Assembly (NCBI GenBank): GCA_013373015.1
Contig: JABXIQ010000007.1
Span: forward strand, 1-64,000
Length of the DNA: 64,000 nucleotides
Source: Kangiellaceae bacterium
GTDB lineage: Bacteria; Pseudomonadota; Gammaproteobacteria; Enterobacterales; Kangiellaceae
Direction of reading: 5' to 3'
In this document: piece by piece, positions 12,288-64,000 of the stretch
Layout of the letters: each line of letters begins with the position of its first letter
Position numbering within the stretch: the first letter of the stretch is position 1
Position numbers and translations under genes: made by a program
The notes under the pieces: model-generated
Databases searched by the model: none
What the model saw: the letters and a program-made list of their open reading frames with translations, nothing else
What the model was told of the DNA's origin: nothing

Positions 12288-13076
12288 ATGAACGCATACA
12301 AAAATATTGCAGTGCGTGCGGCTAACCGTGCGGGTGATTTTGTGGCAAAAGCCTTTGGCGATCGTGATCGCATTATTGCCCAATCAAAGGGTATCAACGA
12401 CTTTGTAAGCAATATCGACAGAAAAGCCGAACAAATCATTATTGATACTATCCAGCTATCTTACCCAGAACACGCTATTTTAGCTGAAGAATCTGGCCAT
12501 ATCGAAGGAAAAGGTGACGACGCACAAGTTACTTGGGTCATTGATCCCATTGATGGCACAACCAATTTTTTACAAGGTATTCCCCACTTCGCCATATCTA
12601 TAGCCGTAAAGCAGAATGGCAAAACCGTTGCTGCGGTTGTATTTGATCCGATAAAAGACGAAATGTTTTCTGCCGCTAATGGCGAAGGTGCACAGCTTAA
12701 CAATAAGCGTATTCGTGTTAGCGATAAACGCAAATTGGATAATGCTGTTTTGGCTACAGGCTTTCCATTCCGTCACCACGCACAACTAGATAACTACCTA
12801 GAATACTTTTCAACATTGTTACCATTATGCTCAGACATGCGTCGCGCAGGCTCTGCCGCTTTAGATTTGGCCTATGTAGCAGCTGGACGAGTGGATGGTT
12901 TTTGGGAGTTCAACCTAGCAGAATGGGACACTGCAGCAGGTATTTTGCTCGTTAAAGAAGCTGGCGGGTTAATTGGTGACGTAAAAGGCAACCCCTACTC
13001 TACAAAATCAAAAAGCATATTGGCAGCTAATCCAGGCGTGTTTAAGCACTTTATGCAAACCGTTAAAAACATATAA
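12288..13076 (+). CDS. suhB: Inositol-1-monophosphatase / NusB-NusA cofactor SuhB
   Basis: 262 residues, the usual SuhB length. The inositol monophosphatase metal site is complete: EESG, WVIDPIDGTTNF and the C-terminal AEWDTAAG. Biochemically it dephosphorylates inositol monophosphate; in enterobacteria SuhB also joins the rRNA antitermination complex. It is divergent from trmJ and ends in a clear terminator. Confidence 0.95.
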   Translation: MNAYKNIAVRAANRAGDFVAKAFGDRDRIIAQSKGINDFVSNIDRKAEQIIIDTIQLSYPEHAILAEESGHIEGKGDDAQVTWVIDPIDGTTNFLQGIPHFAISIAVKQNGKTVAAVVFDPIKDEMFSAANGEGAQLNNKRIRVSDKRKLDNAVLATGFPFRHHAQLDNYLEYFSTLLPLCSDMRRAGSAALDLAYVAAGRVDGFWEFNLAEWDTAAGILLVKEAGGLIGDVKGNPYSTKSKSILAANPGVFKHFMQTVKNI

Positions 13077-56438: not shown

Positions 56439-57107
<669 letters not shown>

Positions 57108-57204: not shown

Positions 57205-59034
57205 TTAATCGAGCAAAAGATCATCAATCTCTTGATTTGCCGCAACTACACAGTTTCGACCATTGTTTTTCGCTTGATATAACGCAGTGTCAGCTAAACT
57301 CATCAACTGATCTAATGACAAATTATCTCGCCAATAAGCATAGCCAACAGAAATGCTGATACGGATCGGCTGACCTTCATAGCTCACAGCTTGTTGATTG
57401 ACTAAAGTTCTTAGCCTATTAGCCAATTCATCTGCCTCTTCTGTATCTGAGCATTCAAGCATTAGAGCAAATTCTTCACCACCGATTCTCGATACCAGAT
57501 CAATCTCACGAACCTCGTTGCTGAGTATTTTAGAAACTTCGCTGAGTACAGCATCACCAGCAGCATGACCAAAATTATCATTAACTTGCTTGAAATGATC
57601 CACATCAATCATAAATAAATATAGCTTTTTGGCCATGTTACGCTTACTTCGTGCAATTGATTGATTGGCTTGCTCAATAAAGGCTCTACGATTGGTAAGC
57701 CCTGTGAGGATATCAATTCTCGCTTCTTTTTCAGCTTTATTTTTTGCTTGTTCTAATAACTTGGTTTGTTCTTTAACCTTTTGATTTAACACATCAGCAG
57801 TGTGCTCAAGATTGGTGCGATAGAGTGTTTCTGCCTCAATACGCGCTTTTTGCATGTGACGTATTCTGAGCACCAGAATGGTCAACAACAGGAATATTTC
57901 AATGAAACCACCCACATAAATCATCCATAAGCTGATGGGCGTATCGGCAATATAACCACGCAATCGCATGGATGCTAAGACCATTCCAATTAAAAAGATA
58001 ATCCAGCTGAACATGAACAGCAACGAGTTTGGCACTTTCTTGAAGTAAGAATAAATACCTATCGGAATTAGCAGAAAATAACCAATTGCAGTGTAATCGA
58101 TGATAACCCTAGAAAAGTAAGGATAACCAAGCACGTTCAACACCACACCAACCACATCAATAGCAATAACCGTCAACAATAGTTTATCGGTTATTGGCAT
58201 ATTCTTTGCAGTTTCCAAAAAAAATCGAATGAACAGAATCGCGGTAATTTGGCATATATTGATTTTCAGCACCACCATCCACAATTGATAGCTCGAATGC
58301 GACAACCAATAAGGCAATATGCCGCTGGCACTGACAAACATGAAGAATGCTGCCAAAGCAAATGCCGAATAGAATAAAAATAGTTTTTCTTTAGATACGA
58401 AATACAGCAACAATGTTATAAACGCCATGAATAATTCTGTGCTGAATAAAATCGTCAGAAACGTCAACTCTTTATCACTATGTCGATAAAACTCTCTTTC
58501 TGACCATATATCAAAAGCGGTAAAACTGTGCATTGGAAACTGATTTCCAGGCATGATACGAATAACCACTTCTTTTTCACTGTTAGGCGCTAAACTGAGA
58601 TGAAACGCGGGGCGATGAAAAGACACTTCTCTTAGCTCTGCGGGGGCTGCGTATAAAAAACTTTGCAGCTCAAATGCTTGCGAACTATTCTTAAGACGGC
58701 TATGGAAATCTATTCGACTCACGGCAGGATCGACATAGGCGATAATAAGTTTTTTTTCTAACCCTGAACGATTTTGTAAAACAAATCGCATCCATGAAAC
58801 ATCTTTATCCATTCCACGATTATGAATTTTGCCTGTGGAAGCAAGCCAATTGTGCTGCGCCAGCACATCTTCCAATGTTAATTGCTGACTTGCATCCTTG
58901 ATATAATGATAATCGTTGTTAGTTTTTATATGACCTTGCAAATTTGAAACGTCAACCACGGGGACGTTTTGAGCAGCTGAAAATGCGATAGGAGAAAACA
59001 CAAGCAACACCATCAACATGATGCTTTTCACCAT
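57205..59034 (-). CDS. 7TMR-DISM membrane sensor diguanylate cyclase
   Basis: 609 residues from the ATG at 59034; the longer frame starts at a TTG. Signal peptide about 1-20. A periplasmic 7TMR-DISMED2 domain (about 25-165: LEDVLAQHNWLASTGKIHNR, the SWMRFVLQNRS core) is followed by seven membrane helices (about 190-390), a coiled coil (about 395-440) and a GGDEF domain with GGEEF (518-522) and an RxxD I-site (REID). It should make c-di-GMP, with feedback inhibition, in response to a periplasmic ligand. It lies 46 nt downstream of the lipoxygenase on the same strand without an intervening terminator. Confidence 0.9.
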   Translation of the reverse strand: MVKSIMLMVLLVFSPIAFSAAQNVPVVDVSNLQGHIKTNNDYHYIKDASQQLTLEDVLAQHNWLASTGKIHNRGMDKDVSWMRFVLQNRSGLEKKLIIAYVDPAVSRIDFHSRLKNSSQAFELQSFLYAAPAELREVSFHRPAFHLSLAPNSEKEVVIRIMPGNQFPMHSFTAFDIWSEREFYRHSDKELTFLTILFSTELFMAFITLLLYFVSKEKLFLFYSAFALAAFFMFVSASGILPYWLSHSSYQLWMVVLKINICQITAILFIRFFLETAKNMPITDKLLLTVIAIDVVGVVLNVLGYPYFSRVIIDYTAIGYFLLIPIGIYSYFKKVPNSLLFMFSWIIFLIGMVLASMRLRGYIADTPISLWMIYVGGFIEIFLLLTILVLRIRHMQKARIEAETLYRTNLEHTADVLNQKVKEQTKLLEQAKNKAEKEARIDILTGLTNRRAFIEQANQSIARSKRNMAKKLYLFMIDVDHFKQVNDNFGHAAGDAVLSEVSKILSNEVREIDLVSRIGGEEFALMLECSDTEEADELANRLRTLVNQQAVSYEGQPIRISISVGYAYWRDNLSLDQLMSLADTALYQAKNNGRNCVVAANQEIDDLLLD

Positions 59035-59080
59035 TATCTCTGTCGCTCTTTGCACTTCTCTCAAAGGGTTATTGTCTCAT

Positions 59081-61249
59081 TTATATACTAATGCTATTTG
59101 GGATCATCGAAGGCAACTGAGACTTATAGGCAAGCGGCCTTTGACGATTTCGCTCAGTTATCTCAACTTCAATTTGTTTTAATGTCAGTTGGAACTTTGC
59201 CAACAAAGGCTCAACGCGCTCATCAGCAAAATAATGATATCGATGATGCTGATTATAATACCCTAATATGTCGTATTGTACACTGCTGAGTAAGTAGCCA
59301 AAAGACACTTGATAAAGACTCACATCCAGCGGTGGTAACCATTTAATAAAATCCGTTTGACTCAAGGTTTGCGAACGGTTCGGCGGCGGCGCGTATAATG
59401 CTCCAGTCACACTGGGAATATAGGTCATCAGCGGATATTGAGCATAATTGACCGAAGCATGTTGCGCGCTGGCGGTATAAATGATCAAAGAAATAACTTT
59501 TACTAAATAGTCAAAATCATCGATTTGTTTGCTCCCATCCACAGAATCAGACAGCCCATTCATGCCTTTCACCGCTGCTCGACGGCTATTAACCATTTCA
59601 TTGATCCAACTTTGCAGCTCTTTATCGGCCAACATCTTCTGCTGCTTTGAAACTGTATCTCCTTGATAATAAAGAGAAAGATAAGATTCAACAAAAGATT
59701 GAATGGCCTGCCATAAAAGCAAGGTATCATCTCTAAAAGGAAATTCAGCTAACCTATCTTTCTCAACGCCACGGATAGTAAACAAGACATCAGGAAACTG
59801 CTCATCGAAGCGCCAATGGTTATAAGCATCAACAATTAATTGGCAACTGCTGCTATGATCCGTACCAACTAGAGAGTCCACCACCCCGCCAGGGACAATC
59901 AAGCTATGAATTGCGCCATTATTAATATCTAAAGTAAATCGGAAATGTGGCTTCAACAACACCATAATCGGATGTTGCTGAGACAATTGGCGATTAGCGG
60001 CAATTACCATTGGCTCTATCGTCAGGTGACAAGCACCCAAATGAGCTACAGTTTCATGCTGGATGGCACAGGCATTTTGCACAGACAATTTGGCCACTTG
60101 CCATTTCGTTCGATCAGGATCATTGTTGTTAGTACAATCATTCGGAGTGAAAATTGGCATAGTTTCAGCATCATATTGCTGACCTAATTGAATCGCAATC
60201 GGTTGCAAAGATGCCTGCGGAGGATAACCTTGCGGCGGTGTTTCGTTCCAATAAAATAAGGCGATTGGCGCAGTAACATAACGTTTTAAGTTATGAATTT
60301 CACTGCCTTTAAGACCATCAAACATTGAATAATCACAAACATATAAAGTGCCAGCTTGCGCAGCCGCCTGCAAAGTCAACTCTTTTTGGCCCGTCACACT
60401 CTGCAGAACTTCATCTGTGATTGGGAACTTTTCCAATAATTTCAACAAACTAACGGCATTATTAGTACTGGATGGGGTCAATGGTTCGCTCACCACACCT
60501 TTAAGGTTGGTGGTATTAAACCCTCCGATCTGCATATAACCAAAATACCAGTCTTGCTCGCTGATTTTCAACTCATCCGTTACTGTCATCCACGGCTTTA
60601 TTGGAATGCTAAGATTAAAGGGCTTGGCTGTCTTCTTGTACAGATCTTGGTAATCACCCAAACTGCTTGCTTGTAAATAATTACGCTTACCATCAATAGT
60701 CAACATGTCAAAAAGCGTGTTCTTAAGAAAGGCTGTGAACCCCTCGCGTTCAAACTCTGCAAAAACCTTTTCTAAACCTGTGATAATAGTCACAACGTCT
60801 TTTGGCAAGCGGCTAATACCTTTAACTGAAGGGACTAGAGTCTTAGGCACTTGAGCCAACAAACCCATCAAATGAACAATATCTTTACCTTCTTTGATAT
60901 ATTTATGATGCTCTTTATCGGCTTCAAATTTTGCAAAAGTCGTTTCTATATCGTGCAATAAAGCCAAGCCTTCTTGCGGCAAATCATTTAATAACTCGCT
61001 TTCCAACAAGGCTACAATTACTGCTTTGAAATTATCAGCCAATGGCAAAAATACTTTCAGCAACTGAGCATTATAATCGAGTGTAAAACTTTCACCTTCG
61101 GGAACATCGGCTGAAATTGGCAAAGGGTCGAGGTAACTAAACATATAGTTATAGGCCGTGCGCGCTAATGACAACTCAAACTCACGTTGTTTTTGTTCGA
61201 CAGCACTCGCAAATTGCGGCAAGACTGGCATCTTGTTATCGTGGTGCAT
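59081..61249 (-). CDS. Bacterial lipoxygenase
   Basis: 722 residues, the size of bacterial and animal lipoxygenases. The non-haem iron ligands are all visible: H398 and H403 (HETVAHLGACH), H597 and N601 (QHASVNYAQY) and the C-terminal Ile722 (PNSISI at the end, as in plant enzymes). EPMVIAANRQLSQQHPIMVL and LKPHFRFTLDIN also match the family. It would dioxygenate polyunsaturated fatty acids to hydroperoxides. No signal peptide is present, so it is probably cytoplasmic, unlike the periplasmic enzyme of P. aeruginosa. A GGGGA site precedes the ATG. It is divergent from an HPP gene and is followed by a DISM diguanylate cyclase. Confidence 0.93.
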   Translation of the reverse strand: MHHDNKMPVLPQFASAVEQKQREFELSLARTAYNYMFSYLDPLPISADVPEGESFTLDYNAQLLKVFLPLADNFKAVIVALLESELLNDLPQEGLALLHDIETTFAKFEADKEHHKYIKEGKDIVHLMGLLAQVPKTLVPSVKGISRLPKDVVTIITGLEKVFAEFEREGFTAFLKNTLFDMLTIDGKRNYLQASSLGDYQDLYKKTAKPFNLSIPIKPWMTVTDELKISEQDWYFGYMQIGGFNTTNLKGVVSEPLTPSSTNNAVSLLKLLEKFPITDEVLQSVTGQKELTLQAAAQAGTLYVCDYSMFDGLKGSEIHNLKRYVTAPIALFYWNETPPQGYPPQASLQPIAIQLGQQYDAETMPIFTPNDCTNNNDPDRTKWQVAKLSVQNACAIQHETVAHLGACHLTIEPMVIAANRQLSQQHPIMVLLKPHFRFTLDINNGAIHSLIVPGGVVDSLVGTDHSSSCQLIVDAYNHWRFDEQFPDVLFTIRGVEKDRLAEFPFRDDTLLLWQAIQSFVESYLSLYYQGDTVSKQQKMLADKELQSWINEMVNSRRAAVKGMNGLSDSVDGSKQIDDFDYLVKVISLIIYTASAQHASVNYAQYPLMTYIPSVTGALYAPPPNRSQTLSQTDFIKWLPPLDVSLYQVSFGYLLSSVQYDILGYYNQHHRYHYFADERVEPLLAKFQLTLKQIEVEITERNRQRPLAYKSQLPSMIPNSISI

Positions 61250-61488: not shown

Positions 61489-61998
61489 ATGCCAATGAAA
61501 ACCATGTCCAACAAAGAGGTCACTATCTCCATTATTGGCGCCTTTATCGCTACTCTATTCGCCTCATTTTTCAGCAACAATATCTTACAAGCAGAAGGCA
61601 TGCCGATGGTTTTGGCCTCAACGGGTGCTTCGGCGATGTTAATTTTTGGGATCCCGCATAGCCCTGTTTCTCAGCCATGGCCAATCGTTGGCGGGCACCT
61701 AGTCTCTGCGCTCATTGGCGTGACTTGTTACTATCTAATTCCAAACCCCATACTGGCATCATCAACAGCCATCGGGTTAGCCATGCTAGCGATGCATTTT
61801 ACTGACTCTATGCACCCACCAGGAGGCGCTACCGCCGTCACTGCCGTAATAGGCGGCGCAACCGTACATCAACTCGGTTATTTCTTCGTTATAGTTCCTG
61901 TTTTTATCAACTCAATCATATTGCTCTCAGTAGCCATGGCGGTAGCTTCTTTTAGAGAGAAGAACCCTTTTATTGACGAGCCAATGACAACTTCCTAA
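61489..61998 (+). CDS. HPP-family integral membrane protein
   Basis: 169 residues with about five membrane helices. The family signature is DSMHPPGGATAVTAVIGG, preceded by ILVFGIPHSPVSQP-like (LIFGIPHSPVSQPWPIVGGH). HPP proteins are poorly characterised; some plant members transport nitrite. The start is uncertain (ATG at 61489 or 61504). It is divergent from the lipoxygenase, with a 239-bp gap that could hold promoters for both. Confidence 0.88.
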   Translation: MPMKTMSNKEVTISIIGAFIATLFASFFSNNILQAEGMPMVLASTGASAMLIFGIPHSPVSQPWPIVGGHLVSALIGVTCYYLIPNPILASSTAIGLAMLAMHFTDSMHPPGGATAVTAVIGGATVHQLGYFFVIVPVFINSIILLSVAMAVASFREKNPFIDEPMTTS

Positions 61999-62186
61999 GC
62001 TGTATTTTGATACACTTACTCCTAACAATGTCAAAATACTTTACAAATCATTATCTTTTCTAATGCAAAATTGCATCGTGGATCTCCTACACGATTTCAA
62101 GAAATCAACTCTTTTTCTTATATAACCAATTGAATAATCTGTAATTGCTTTATATGGAAAGCACAACACAACCAAGGATGGAAATT

Positions 62187-62717
62187 ATGAAAAATTTATT
62201 AATAGGATTATTTTTATTATCTGCTAGCTCTTCTGTCATTGCTGGTAATTCAGGTGTATCGGGCACTCGAGGTGACTTTAGCAATACGCTTTCTTATTAC
62301 GATAGCTATAAACTGCAATCGTTTAATGTCAATGAAAAACTTGATAGGCCTTGTTATGTCAGCGCTATTCTACGAGGTACTAACGGAACTGTTGAAGAAA
62401 CAACTAACAACTGCTATTTGTCACCAAACCACACATCTGTCAGTGCAGTAGGTCTATTCTATGGAAAAATTGAAACACTTCAGGTTTGCCACTCAAAAAG
62501 TGGTCGCGTCAAAGGTTATAAAATCACTGGAACCAATCAGCAAGGTTTACCCGATACCGACTTCTACAAACGTGCGAATTGTTCAAAGTGGAAAAACACC
62601 GTTTCTTGCCCATCGGGCGAAATTGCTAATGGCTTACGCGCCTATTTCAAAGGAGCATCTTTTAATAAGTCAGACATATTGGTTGGCCTGCAGTTATTAT
62701 GCAGAATAGATAACTAA
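62187..62717 (+). CDS. Small exported cysteine-containing protein
   Basis: 176 residues from the ATG at 62187, after a GGAAA site, giving a clean signal peptide (MKNLLIGLFLLSASSSVIAG). The mature part has six cysteines and ends CPSGEIANGLRAYF...ILVGLQLLCRI, a pattern of secreted single-domain proteins of unknown role. A longer in-frame ATG at 62145 would mask the signal peptide. No family assigned. Confidence 0.65.
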   Translation: MKNLLIGLFLLSASSSVIAGNSGVSGTRGDFSNTLSYYDSYKLQSFNVNEKLDRPCYVSAILRGTNGTVEETTNNCYLSPNHTSVSAVGLFYGKIETLQVCHSKSGRVKGYKITGTNQQGLPDTDFYKRANCSKWKNTVSCPSGEIANGLRAYFKGASFNKSDILVGLQLLCRIDN

Positions 62718-62732
62718 GTTAGAATTATTATG

Positions 62733-62756
62733 TAAAGGCTGTTTATTCAGCCTTTA
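62733..62756. terminator. Stem-loop between convergent genes
   Basis: TAAAGGCTG / CAGCCTTTA with a TTTATT loop. Overlaps the end of the vanZ-like gene; T-tract is weak. Confidence 0.5.
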
Positions 62757-63102
62757 CTAAATAAGGTTTTAACCAATTTCCAATCAGCACACCCGAAACA
62801 ACACCTAAACTATTAGCGAGCAAATCCTGCCATTCAAAGCCGCGATTTGGAATAAATTGTTGCAACACTTCGATCACCAGTGAAAACACAATACAGCCCA
62901 GTGCAATCTGCCAATGTTTGTGTTTAGTAGAGCCTAAGCGAGCCAATAGAGCTAATCCAAAATATCCTATGAAATGCAAGGCTTTATCCCAGGGTAAGTT
63001 AGAAGGCAGTTGTTTTCCAGGCATCAGGGACATGATAAAAATAAATGTTGTAGCAGCGAGGAACAACACTTTAAATAATTTTGAGTTTAAGATTTTCAAC
63101 AT
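62743..63102 (-). CDS. VanZ-family membrane protein
   Basis: 119 residues with four membrane helices. VanZ-like pattern: MSLMPGKQLPSNLPWDKALHFIGYFGLALL and FIPNRGFEWQDLLANSLG. VanZ of enterococci gives low-level teicoplanin resistance; the role of such proteins in Gram-negatives is unknown. The ATG directly adjoins the T-tract of the htpG terminator and has no ribosome site, so translation may start inside (ATG codons near residue 24) or rely on an unusual leaderless or read-through transcript. Confidence 0.75.
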   Translation of the reverse strand: MLKILNSKLFKVLFLAATTFIFIMSLMPGKQLPSNLPWDKALHFIGYFGLALLARLGSTKHKHWQIALGCIVFSLVIEVLQQFIPNRGFEWQDLLANSLGVVSGVLIGNWLKPYLVKAE

Positions 63103-63158: not shown

Positions 63159-64000
63159 CTATTGAGCCAATTTTAGCAGCAGCTTGTTGAGCTTACTAGC
63201 AAAACTAGCCGGGTCTTCCAACTGCCCTGCTTCTGCTAATTGTGCCTGATCGAATAATACATCAACCCACTCAGCAAACTTCTCTTCATCAGCTTCATGA
63301 TCGACCAATTGGATCAGCGCATGCTCAGGATTAATTTCAAAAACAGGTTTTACCTCTGGAACAGGTTGACCTGCTGCCTGCATCATCTTCACGATTTGCA
63401 ATGGCATATCACCTTCGCCAGCAACAATCACAGCAGGCGTGTCAGTTAAGCGATTGGTCACGCGAACTTCAGCAACTTTCTCGCCTAAAGTATCTGCAAT
63501 ACGTTTAGTTAGCGCTTCATGCTGTTTTGAAGCAACTTCTTTAGCTTTTTTCTCTTCTGCATCTTCGAGATTCCCCAAATCTAATGCGCCTTGGGTTACC
63601 GACACAAATTGCTTACCTTTATACTCCTGAAGGTGTGACACAGTCCATTCATCAATTCGATCAGACATCAATAACACCTCGATACCTTTCTTACGGAATA
63701 TTTCCAAATGAGGACTGTTTTTGGCTGCTAAGAAACTATCTGTAGCAATATAATATATCTTGTCTTGCTCAGGCTTCATGCGTTCAATATAGGCATCCAA
63801 TGAAATGGTTTGCTCTTTTGTGTCAACATGAGTTGAGCTAAAACGGAACAATTGGGCTATTTTTTCTTTATTAGCAAAATCTTCGCCAGGACCTTCTTTT
63901 AATACTTGGCCAAATTCATTCCAAAACTCTTGGTATTTGTCGGCATCTTTTTTCGCCAGCTGCTCTAACATTTTTAACACACGGCTTACAGTAGCACTGC
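63159..64000 (-). CDS. htpG: Chaperone HtpG (Hsp90), 3' part
   Basis: The frame is open to the right window edge, so the 5' part of the gene lies outside. Before the first ATG in the window the frame reads SATVSRVLK, continuing MLEQLAKKDADKYQEFWNEF and GQVLKEGPGEDFANKEKIAQ. This is the middle domain of HtpG, followed by the C-terminal dimerisation domain (RLTDTPAVIVAGEGDMPLQI and INPEHALIQLVDHEADEEKF). It ends LLKLAQ. HtpG remodels client proteins in the cytoplasm, in partnership with DnaK. A strong terminator follows. Confidence 0.95.
   Translation of the reverse strand, partial: SATVSRVLKMLEQLAKKDADKYQEFWNEFGQVLKEGPGEDFANKEKIAQLFRFSSTHVDTKEQTISLDAYIERMKPEQDKIYYIATDSFLAAKNSPHLEIFRKKGIEVLLMSDRIDEWTVSHLQEYKGKQFVSVTQGALDLGNLEDAEEKKAKEVASKQHEALTKRIADTLGEKVAEVRVTNRLTDTPAVIVAGEGDMPLQIVKMMQAAGQPVPEVKPVFEINPEHALIQLVDHEADEEKFAEWVDVLFDQAQLAEAGQLEDPASFASKLNKLLLKLAQ

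Follow-up and report, generated by a model that had tools for sequence, protein, structure and literature searches.

In Burkholderia and other bacteria the gene of a fatty-acid-signal enzyme, RpfF, lies beside that of a cyclic diguanylate (c-di-GMP) enzyme, RpfR, and the RpfF product BDSF binds and controls RpfR (PMC6361424, PMC8846402). Judged by analogy, this is the nearest working analogue of a gene pair at positions 57205 to 61249 of the 64,000-nucleotide stretch analysed here (the window; positions 1 to 64,000 of contig JABXIQ010000007.1, Kangiellaceae bacterium assembly GCA_013373015.1), in which a lipoxygenase (LOX) gene is followed on the same strand by the gene of a 7TMR-DISM diguanylate cyclase (DGC). 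By its protein families, the window pair is not a member of the RpfF/RpfR type. The enzyme RpfF is no lipoxygenase, its partner RpfR is of soluble type, with FI-PAS-DGC-PDE architecture, and works as a phosphodiesterase, and the two genes are convergent, whereas in the window a LOX stands at the synthase position and reads in the same direction as a seven-transmembrane (7TM) DGC in which no PAS or EAL domain was matched at E 0.001.

The oxylipin system ODS of Pseudomonas aeruginosa (PA2077/PA2078, OdsR) resembles the window pair in that bacterial oxylipins serve as signals (PMC6377657). However, these quorum-sensing signals are made from oleic acid by a diol synthase (PMC6377657, PMC5155153), a member of a di-heme enzyme family and not a LOX (PMC4496055), the receptor OdsR is a LysR-type regulator, and PMC6377657 does not mention c-di-GMP. 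In the biofilm model of the same group c-di-GMP acts late and downstream, with no dedicated sensor (PMC5155153). The first-pass annotation of the window had taken the P. aeruginosa signals to be lipoxygenase-derived, an attribution that gives way to the diol synthase, and no diol synthase or LysR domain occurs in the genes scanned beside the window pair, which places it outside ODS. LoxA of P. aeruginosa and other bacterial lipoxygenases share the PF00305 family and the iron ligands with the window LOX, but LoxA is described as secreted (PMC6702342), while the window LOX has no hydrophobic N-terminus and contains an additional loop, NDCTNNND, that is conserved. Over 68% of its length it is 32% identical to a LOX encoded on a P. 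aeruginosa plasmid. The DGC has the DISMED2 plus 7TM architecture of RetS, SagS and the DISM-GGDEF cyclases, yet it and its counterparts elsewhere form a separate orthologue set (942-1095 bits for full-length members against a profile of ten of them, 376 for the next DISM-GGDEF protein).

Bacterial lipoxygenases are rare, with one estimate of <0.5% of sequenced species (PMC6612559), and few have an established role in physiology; conservation of a partner gene directs attention to signalling and indicates which signal is concerned. In the open-access literature, subscription papers being outside the scope of the search, no paper evidently reports a lipoxygenase gene next to one for a diguanylate cyclase, and a 2022 review counts BDSF/RpfR as quorum sensing and states that c-di-GMP networks still lacked an identified sensor domain for lipids (PMC8846402). 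If the cyclase is governed by what the LOX makes or by its action on the membrane, oxylipin chemistry of eukaryotic type would be linked to c-di-GMP signalling, which would gain a dedicated lipid input. In either case the pair suggests for a bacterial lipoxygenase a role that can be tested at the bench.

The lipoxygenase, the cyclase and the gap between them

The LOX gene, the first of the pair (59081..61249, minus strand), encodes 722 residues with a PF00305 match of 201.7 bits against a curated cut-off of 23.6 in the Pfam domain scan. It is the sole PF00305 match (E 0.001) in its own assembly, and 14 control genomes gave none. The catalytic part aligns with solved lipoxygenases (best 5med, 7e-67), and H398, H403, H597, N601 and the C-terminal I722 match equivalent residues in these structures; we take them to be the five iron ligands (three His, Asn and the C-terminal Ile). 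The ligand residues are present in all 12 LOXs found paired with such a DGC, and the enzyme is predicted to oxygenate polyunsaturated fatty acids (PUFA). Hydropathy gives no hydrophobic N-terminal stretch, so the enzyme should be cytosolic. An inserted loop of the NDCTNNND type (residues 370-377, with Cys372) together with Cys407 directly after the HxxxxH motif forms a subfamily signature, both cysteines being present in 14 of the 15 LOXs of this clade and absent from the Plesiocystis member and from five other LOXs aligned. An AlphaFold model of the LOX, built from 12 alignment rows, had a confidence (pLDDT) of 57.7 and was not used. A plasmid-borne origin was considered and rejected: eight plasmid records match the LOX, all at <60% identity and none covering >80% of the query, with the best-ranked at 33.7%.

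The DGC gene (57205..59034, minus strand; ATG at 59034) encodes 609 residues, arranged as a signal-peptide-like hydrophobic N-terminus, DISMED2 (42-163; PF07696, 52 bits), the 7TM bundle (192-388; PF07695, 81.9 bits) and GGDEF (439-594; PF00990). Hydropathy resolves seven hydrophobic stretches besides the N-terminus, which are helices in the structure model. The GGEEF motif (518-522) lies five residues downstream of an RxxD I-site (R509/D512), and both motifs are found in 12/12 paired DGCs and in an unpaired Vibrionaceae orthologue (G576); the intact motifs predict synthesis of c-di-GMP, a biofilm signal. Domain scans and alignment thus bear out the first-pass description of a LOX with all iron ligands followed on the same strand by a DISM cyclase with intact GGEEF and I-site. 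The sensor matches that of RetS (2xbz) only weakly in sequence (E 0.82), and the Foldseek search with the DGC model (pLDDT 77.4) returned, among the matches listed, GGDEF proteins, which carry no information on the sensor.

From the LOX stop to the DGC ATG the gap measures 46 nt (59035..59080, minus strand) and, as the first-pass annotation had it, contains no terminator-like site, nor does it contain a hairpin: the terminator scan found none and folding gave no stable structure (z 0.72). An alternative in-frame TTG at 59064, upstream of the ATG, would cut the gap to 16 nt. Two same-genus genomes (G010 and G005) have gaps of 45-48 nt, and in a gammaproteobacterial metagenome-assembled genome (MAG) and the Vibrionaceae the first possible DGC starts, themselves not proven, fall within ~50 nt of the LOX stop. 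In the window the two genes are likely an operon.

Conservation of the pair and matched occurrence

The same two genes in the same order and on the same strand occur at 12 loci, in eight neighbourhoods that share no common flanking gene (open reading frames (ORFs) of >=110 aa within 7 kb, compared at 1e-10 and 30% identity, the window being represented by seven listed genes and the Enterovibrio norvegicus contig ending ~1 kb past the pair). Three loci belong to the genus of the window, four to Shewanella, one to Enterovibrio, three are Grimontia-type and one is the gammaproteobacterial MAG. The adjacency noted in the first-pass annotation is therefore not confined to this genome. Pairing is seen for 12 of the 15 full-length LOXs found of this clade, and order and strand are kept at protein identities down to 45%.

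In a set of 61 genomes, that of the window and those of relatives, a close LOX of full length was found in three of the same genus (G000, G005, G010) and in G028, with identities to the window LOX of 59-60% in G005 and G010 and 51-53% in G028, compared with 58% in Shewanella. The same three same-genus genomes carry the DGC orthologue directly downstream of the LOX (48-49% identity over nearly full length), and the remaining 17 of this 20-genome set, two of whose members are 55 and 86% complete, have far weaker DGC matches only (best E 2e-38). A scan of named genomes gave eight LOX loci, seven of them with the DGC next in the same order and on the same strand (Shewanella waksmanii, S. nanhaiensis, S. 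hanedai, Enterovibrio norvegicus, Grimontia indica, G. celer and the MAG), and two further paired loci lie in G557 (Shewanella) and G611 (Vibrionaceae).

The two genes also match in their occurrence. In 129 Shewanella genomes the LOX scores >1300 bits in four, and the DGC sensor part scores >660 bits in the same four, the next genome reaching 62.7 bits. Among 276 Vibrionaceae genomes the LOX is present in five (four at ~1300 bits, G568 at 920), the DGC (>600 bits) in five and both in four, while in the 20 same-genus genomes identical sets of three carry LOX and DGC. In a class-wide draw of 369 genomes only G000 scores comparably for either gene; distant matches are seen in five further genomes for the LOX (at most 197.5 bits) and in 33 further genomes for the sensor (at most 108 bits). 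The naive probabilities of such co-occurrence by chance are 9e-8 (Shewanella), 1e-7 (Vibrionaceae) and 9e-4 (same genus). LOX and DGC descend in parallel, their trees having matching clades and a path-length correlation of 0.97 over 12 pairs, a pattern compatible with joint inheritance, though the relatedness of the species could also produce it.

Several further LOX subfamilies (~140 to 280 bits) occur in Shewanella and Vibrionaceae, and an adjacent DISM-type DGC was found at 0/19 loci of other or distant LOXs examined (12/15 versus 0/19, naive Fisher p 8e-7), the nearest approach being a GGDEF gene ~5.5 kb away at one of them. The control loci are those in G458, G529, G547 C15, G551 C20, G548, G543 C1:1666453, G553 C79, G427 C26, G703, G670, G646, G688, G658, G556, G085, G342, G817 C3, G024 and G016; weak controls among them are G342 (without the HxxxxH iron motif), G543 (with an internal stop) and the distant G085, G817 and G016. 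The set does not extend to G505, G506, G547 C2, G551 C35, G553 C166, other places in G543, G707, G694 and G597, nor to weak LOX hits from the class draw and the Shewanella and Vibrionaceae searches. In G543 a LOX of another subfamily (L198:6442-8451) is broken by a stop codon. Taken as a whole, LOX and DGC form a real, conserved module of two genes that are very probably linked in function.

A proposed lipid input and its alternatives

We propose, with a probability of roughly one half, that the DGC takes as its input what the LOX produces or the effect of this on the membrane, an enzyme-coupled lipid sensor whose ligand and direction are inferred. The cytosolic LOX would oxygenate polyunsaturated fatty acyl chains, and the 7TMR-DISM protein encoded next to it would sense either the hydroperoxy or hydroxy fatty acid so formed or the change that this causes in the inner membrane, probably at or inside its 7TM bundle, with a change in diguanylate cyclase output that may favour attachment. 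The PUFA could be self-made where a PfaA-type synthase is present, as in Shewanella, and elsewhere probably come from the surroundings, for example from algae or animal tissue. PfaA is a marker of bacterial PUFA synthesis, and among the 12 genomes in which it was sought (10 of them paired; G557 and G611 lay outside this set) it exceeded the cut-off in 3/10 paired genomes, all Shewanella. Because of this restriction the substrate is probably external in the paired genomes without PfaA, as judged from PfaA alone among PUFA routes. The more specific picture, in which PfaA-less bacteria turn algal or animal PUFA into an oxylipin through the cytosolic LOX and a dedicated 7TM DGC reads it in the membrane, so that contact with eukaryotic lipid brings the cell to attach, is offered tentatively, at somewhat less than even odds. 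That the pair is kept in several marine bacteria suggests that these carriers use the oxidation of fats as a signal governing behaviour.

Lipoxygenases make lipid hydroperoxides. In E. norvegicus a glutathione peroxidase (GPx) gene (L086:14202-14864) overlaps the DGC gene by 4 nt to give a LOX-DGC-GPx run, which fits a lipid hydroperoxide intermediate. The location of sensing was approached through ten DGCs of the group (nine paired plus the unpaired G576 protein, with the near-identical G. celer, G611 and G557 rows omitted) and 23 other DISM-GGDEF proteins (after the poor DISM rows L184, L187 and L188 were dropped). Positions invariant in the group and rare (<=10%) in the others number 19/197 in the 7TM bundle and 2/122 in DISMED2 (Fisher p 0.0045), and include the polar 7TM residues E200, Q262, N300, D313 and R359. 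Since group-specific conservation is commoner in the bundle, sensing in the membrane appears at least as likely as sensing by the periplasmic DISMED2, and an oxylipin or membrane effect sensed at the 7TM bundle is put forward as a suggestion only. The first-pass annotation had placed the reading of the oxidised fatty acid, or of a changed membrane state, in the periplasmic DISM domain; its idea of a conserved unit holds at 12 loci, while the P. aeruginosa precedent and a role for the divergent HPP gene (below) drop out.

Several observations weigh against the proposed lipid input, or against parts of the evidence for it. GPx is found at 1/12 loci, and the next downstream genes scanned elsewhere are not peroxidases. 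The 7TM bundle is better conserved overall (51/197 positions invariant, DISMED2 17/122), and among invariant positions the group-specific share is 19/51 against 2/17 (p 0.07); the higher conservation of 7TM than of GGDEF within the group (59 vs 53%) was rejected as a special signal, some unrelated orthologue pairs showing the same. For DISMED2, carbohydrate binding through a jelly-roll fold is predicted (PMC8846402), and direct reading of the product by this periplasmic domain is complicated by the lack of a hydrophobic N-terminus on the LOX. The naive co-occurrence probabilities are too small because of shared descent, which also accounts for part of the tree agreement, and the Shewanella and Vibrionaceae sets may each represent one acquisition.

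The two genes are also found apart. G576 keeps the DGC (48.6%) with no LOX match found, and because this DGC is sister to the other Vibrionaceae DGCs (support 100/99), the tree suggests that G576 lost its LOX. Conversely, LOXs without this DGC occur in G568 (46%), G028 (51-53%) and Plesiocystis pacifica (45%), which form a side branch (support 85/85). The LOX of G028 is convergent with the gene of a 1711-aa kinase-AAA-GAF-GGDEF protein (L078:11654-16789), possibly a chance neighbour, given that this genome is GGDEF-rich (91 first-look candidates). The Plesiocystis LOX ends in Ser, other clade members ending in Ile, and an aldehyde dehydrogenase gene (L090:8410-9963) lies ~13 nt upstream of it on the same strand.

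In Shewanella, finally, the first possible DGC start, again not proven, lies 237-253 nt after the LOX stop at the four loci, and the gap contains a strong, terminator-like hairpin in 4/4 (L084, L192, L085 and L083; z -2.7 to -4.8), one of them at L084:12158-12260, with a short T run following in 3/4. The hairpin sequences differ between loci, and a partly conserved block precedes the DGC. Simple promoter and terminator scans performed at chance level, the scan of L084 missing the hairpin that folding detected. Owing to these hairpins co-transcription of LOX and DGC is doubtful in Shewanella, and the conserved feature is the neighbourhood of the two genes, not their co-transcription. A GTAAG-N9-CTTAC repeat, present in the gap of 2/4 Shewanella loci and upstream of 0/12 LOXs, was rejected as a shared operator.

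The likely separate transcription in Shewanella and the retention of the sensor alone in G576 both fit a reading in which LOX and DGC are parallel outputs of one cue, the DGC itself sensing a lipid-rich surface or host (for example a glycan through DISMED2, for which carbohydrate sensing is predicted; PMC8846402) and raising c-di-GMP to promote attachment, and the LOX acting as an effector in nutrient processing or in competitor or host manipulation with no step from product to sensor. Such an arrangement would by itself leave unexplained why the DGC orthologue is otherwise found only beside this LOX in the genomes searched, and we regard it as rather doubtful. The GPx gene of E. norvegicus, a methionine sulfoxide reductase gene divergent from the pair in G010 and the group-specific conservation in the 7TM bundle could also reflect a membrane damage or oxidative stress unit, in which the LOX removes or oxidises PUFA incorporated into the membrane, while the DGC responds to a membrane that has been altered or peroxidised, as a stress sensor and not as part of a signalling pathway. 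That account is unlikely: GPx turned up at a single one of the 12 loci and, by general enzymology, a LOX produces lipid hydroperoxides and does not remove them.

Control might also run in the reverse direction, with c-di-GMP or the DGC protein governing how active the LOX is or how strongly it is expressed; a precedent is RpfR, whose FI domain binds RpfF and inhibits it by direct contact (PMC6361424). Transcription of the P. aeruginosa LoxA operon (PA1168-PA1169) is reported to be lower in the presence of a compound interfering with c-di-GMP signalling (PMC8271024), a hint that the c-di-GMP to LOX direction is also possible; however, the domain scan recognised neither a c-di-GMP-binding domain in the LOX nor an additional domain for interaction in the DGC, and as an explanation of the pair we judge this very unlikely. 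The presence in relatives of the htpG-vanZ-adk interval without the pair, and a phage-type integrase gene ~0.5 kb upstream of the LOX in G611, might be taken to mean that the genes are neighbours by chance or travel together on a mobile island without being linked in function, but the constant order and strand in eight contexts, at the low identities given above, and the absence of such a neighbour from all 19 other-LOX loci contradict this, and it is highly improbable.

Genomic setting and neighbouring genes

Downstream of the pair the window continues LOX, DGC, adk, hemH. The site is marked by adk (56439..57095, minus strand) on one side and by a vanZ-like gene (62743-63102) and htpG (63159-63980) on the other, none of which is part of the module. 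At least five same-genus genomes (G014, G005, G002, G007 and G001) have htpG, the vanZ-like gene and adk in direct succession, whereas in the window the stretch from vanZ to adk also holds a 190-aa ORF, an HPP gene and the LOX-DGC pair. G005 and G010 carry the pair and adk on separate contigs. The adk gene is 85-87% identical to its same-genus relatives, and the LOX is about equally far from its same-genus (59-60%) and Shewanella (58%) relatives, which suggests transfer or old loss rather than recent vertical descent. The G+C contents (LOX 41.4%, DGC 39.0%, window 40.6%) carry no foreign signature and speak neither for nor against this.

The HPP membrane protein gene (61489..61998, plus strand), divergent from the pair, had been put forward in the first-pass annotation as a possible third member, and we exclude it: no relative was found in the stretches examined around the 11 other pairs, and among 41 genomes a close copy (78%) is found only in G021, which has no LOX, the others reaching <=42%. 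The 190-aa ORF (62145-62717; unmatched in Pfam and NCBIfam at E 0.001) may be native to the vanZ-adk interval, given that relatives with 40 and 55% identity sit at the same place in G006 and G009. In the same general interval as the window's pair, G016 carries a divergent LOX-like gene between vanZ and htpG (L080:8967-10529; 520 aa, PF00305 66 bits, 25% identity). In G010, convergent genes for a Sigma-70-family factor (L076:12712-13257) and a zinc-finger anti-sigma-like protein (12288-12725) lie directly downstream of the pair.

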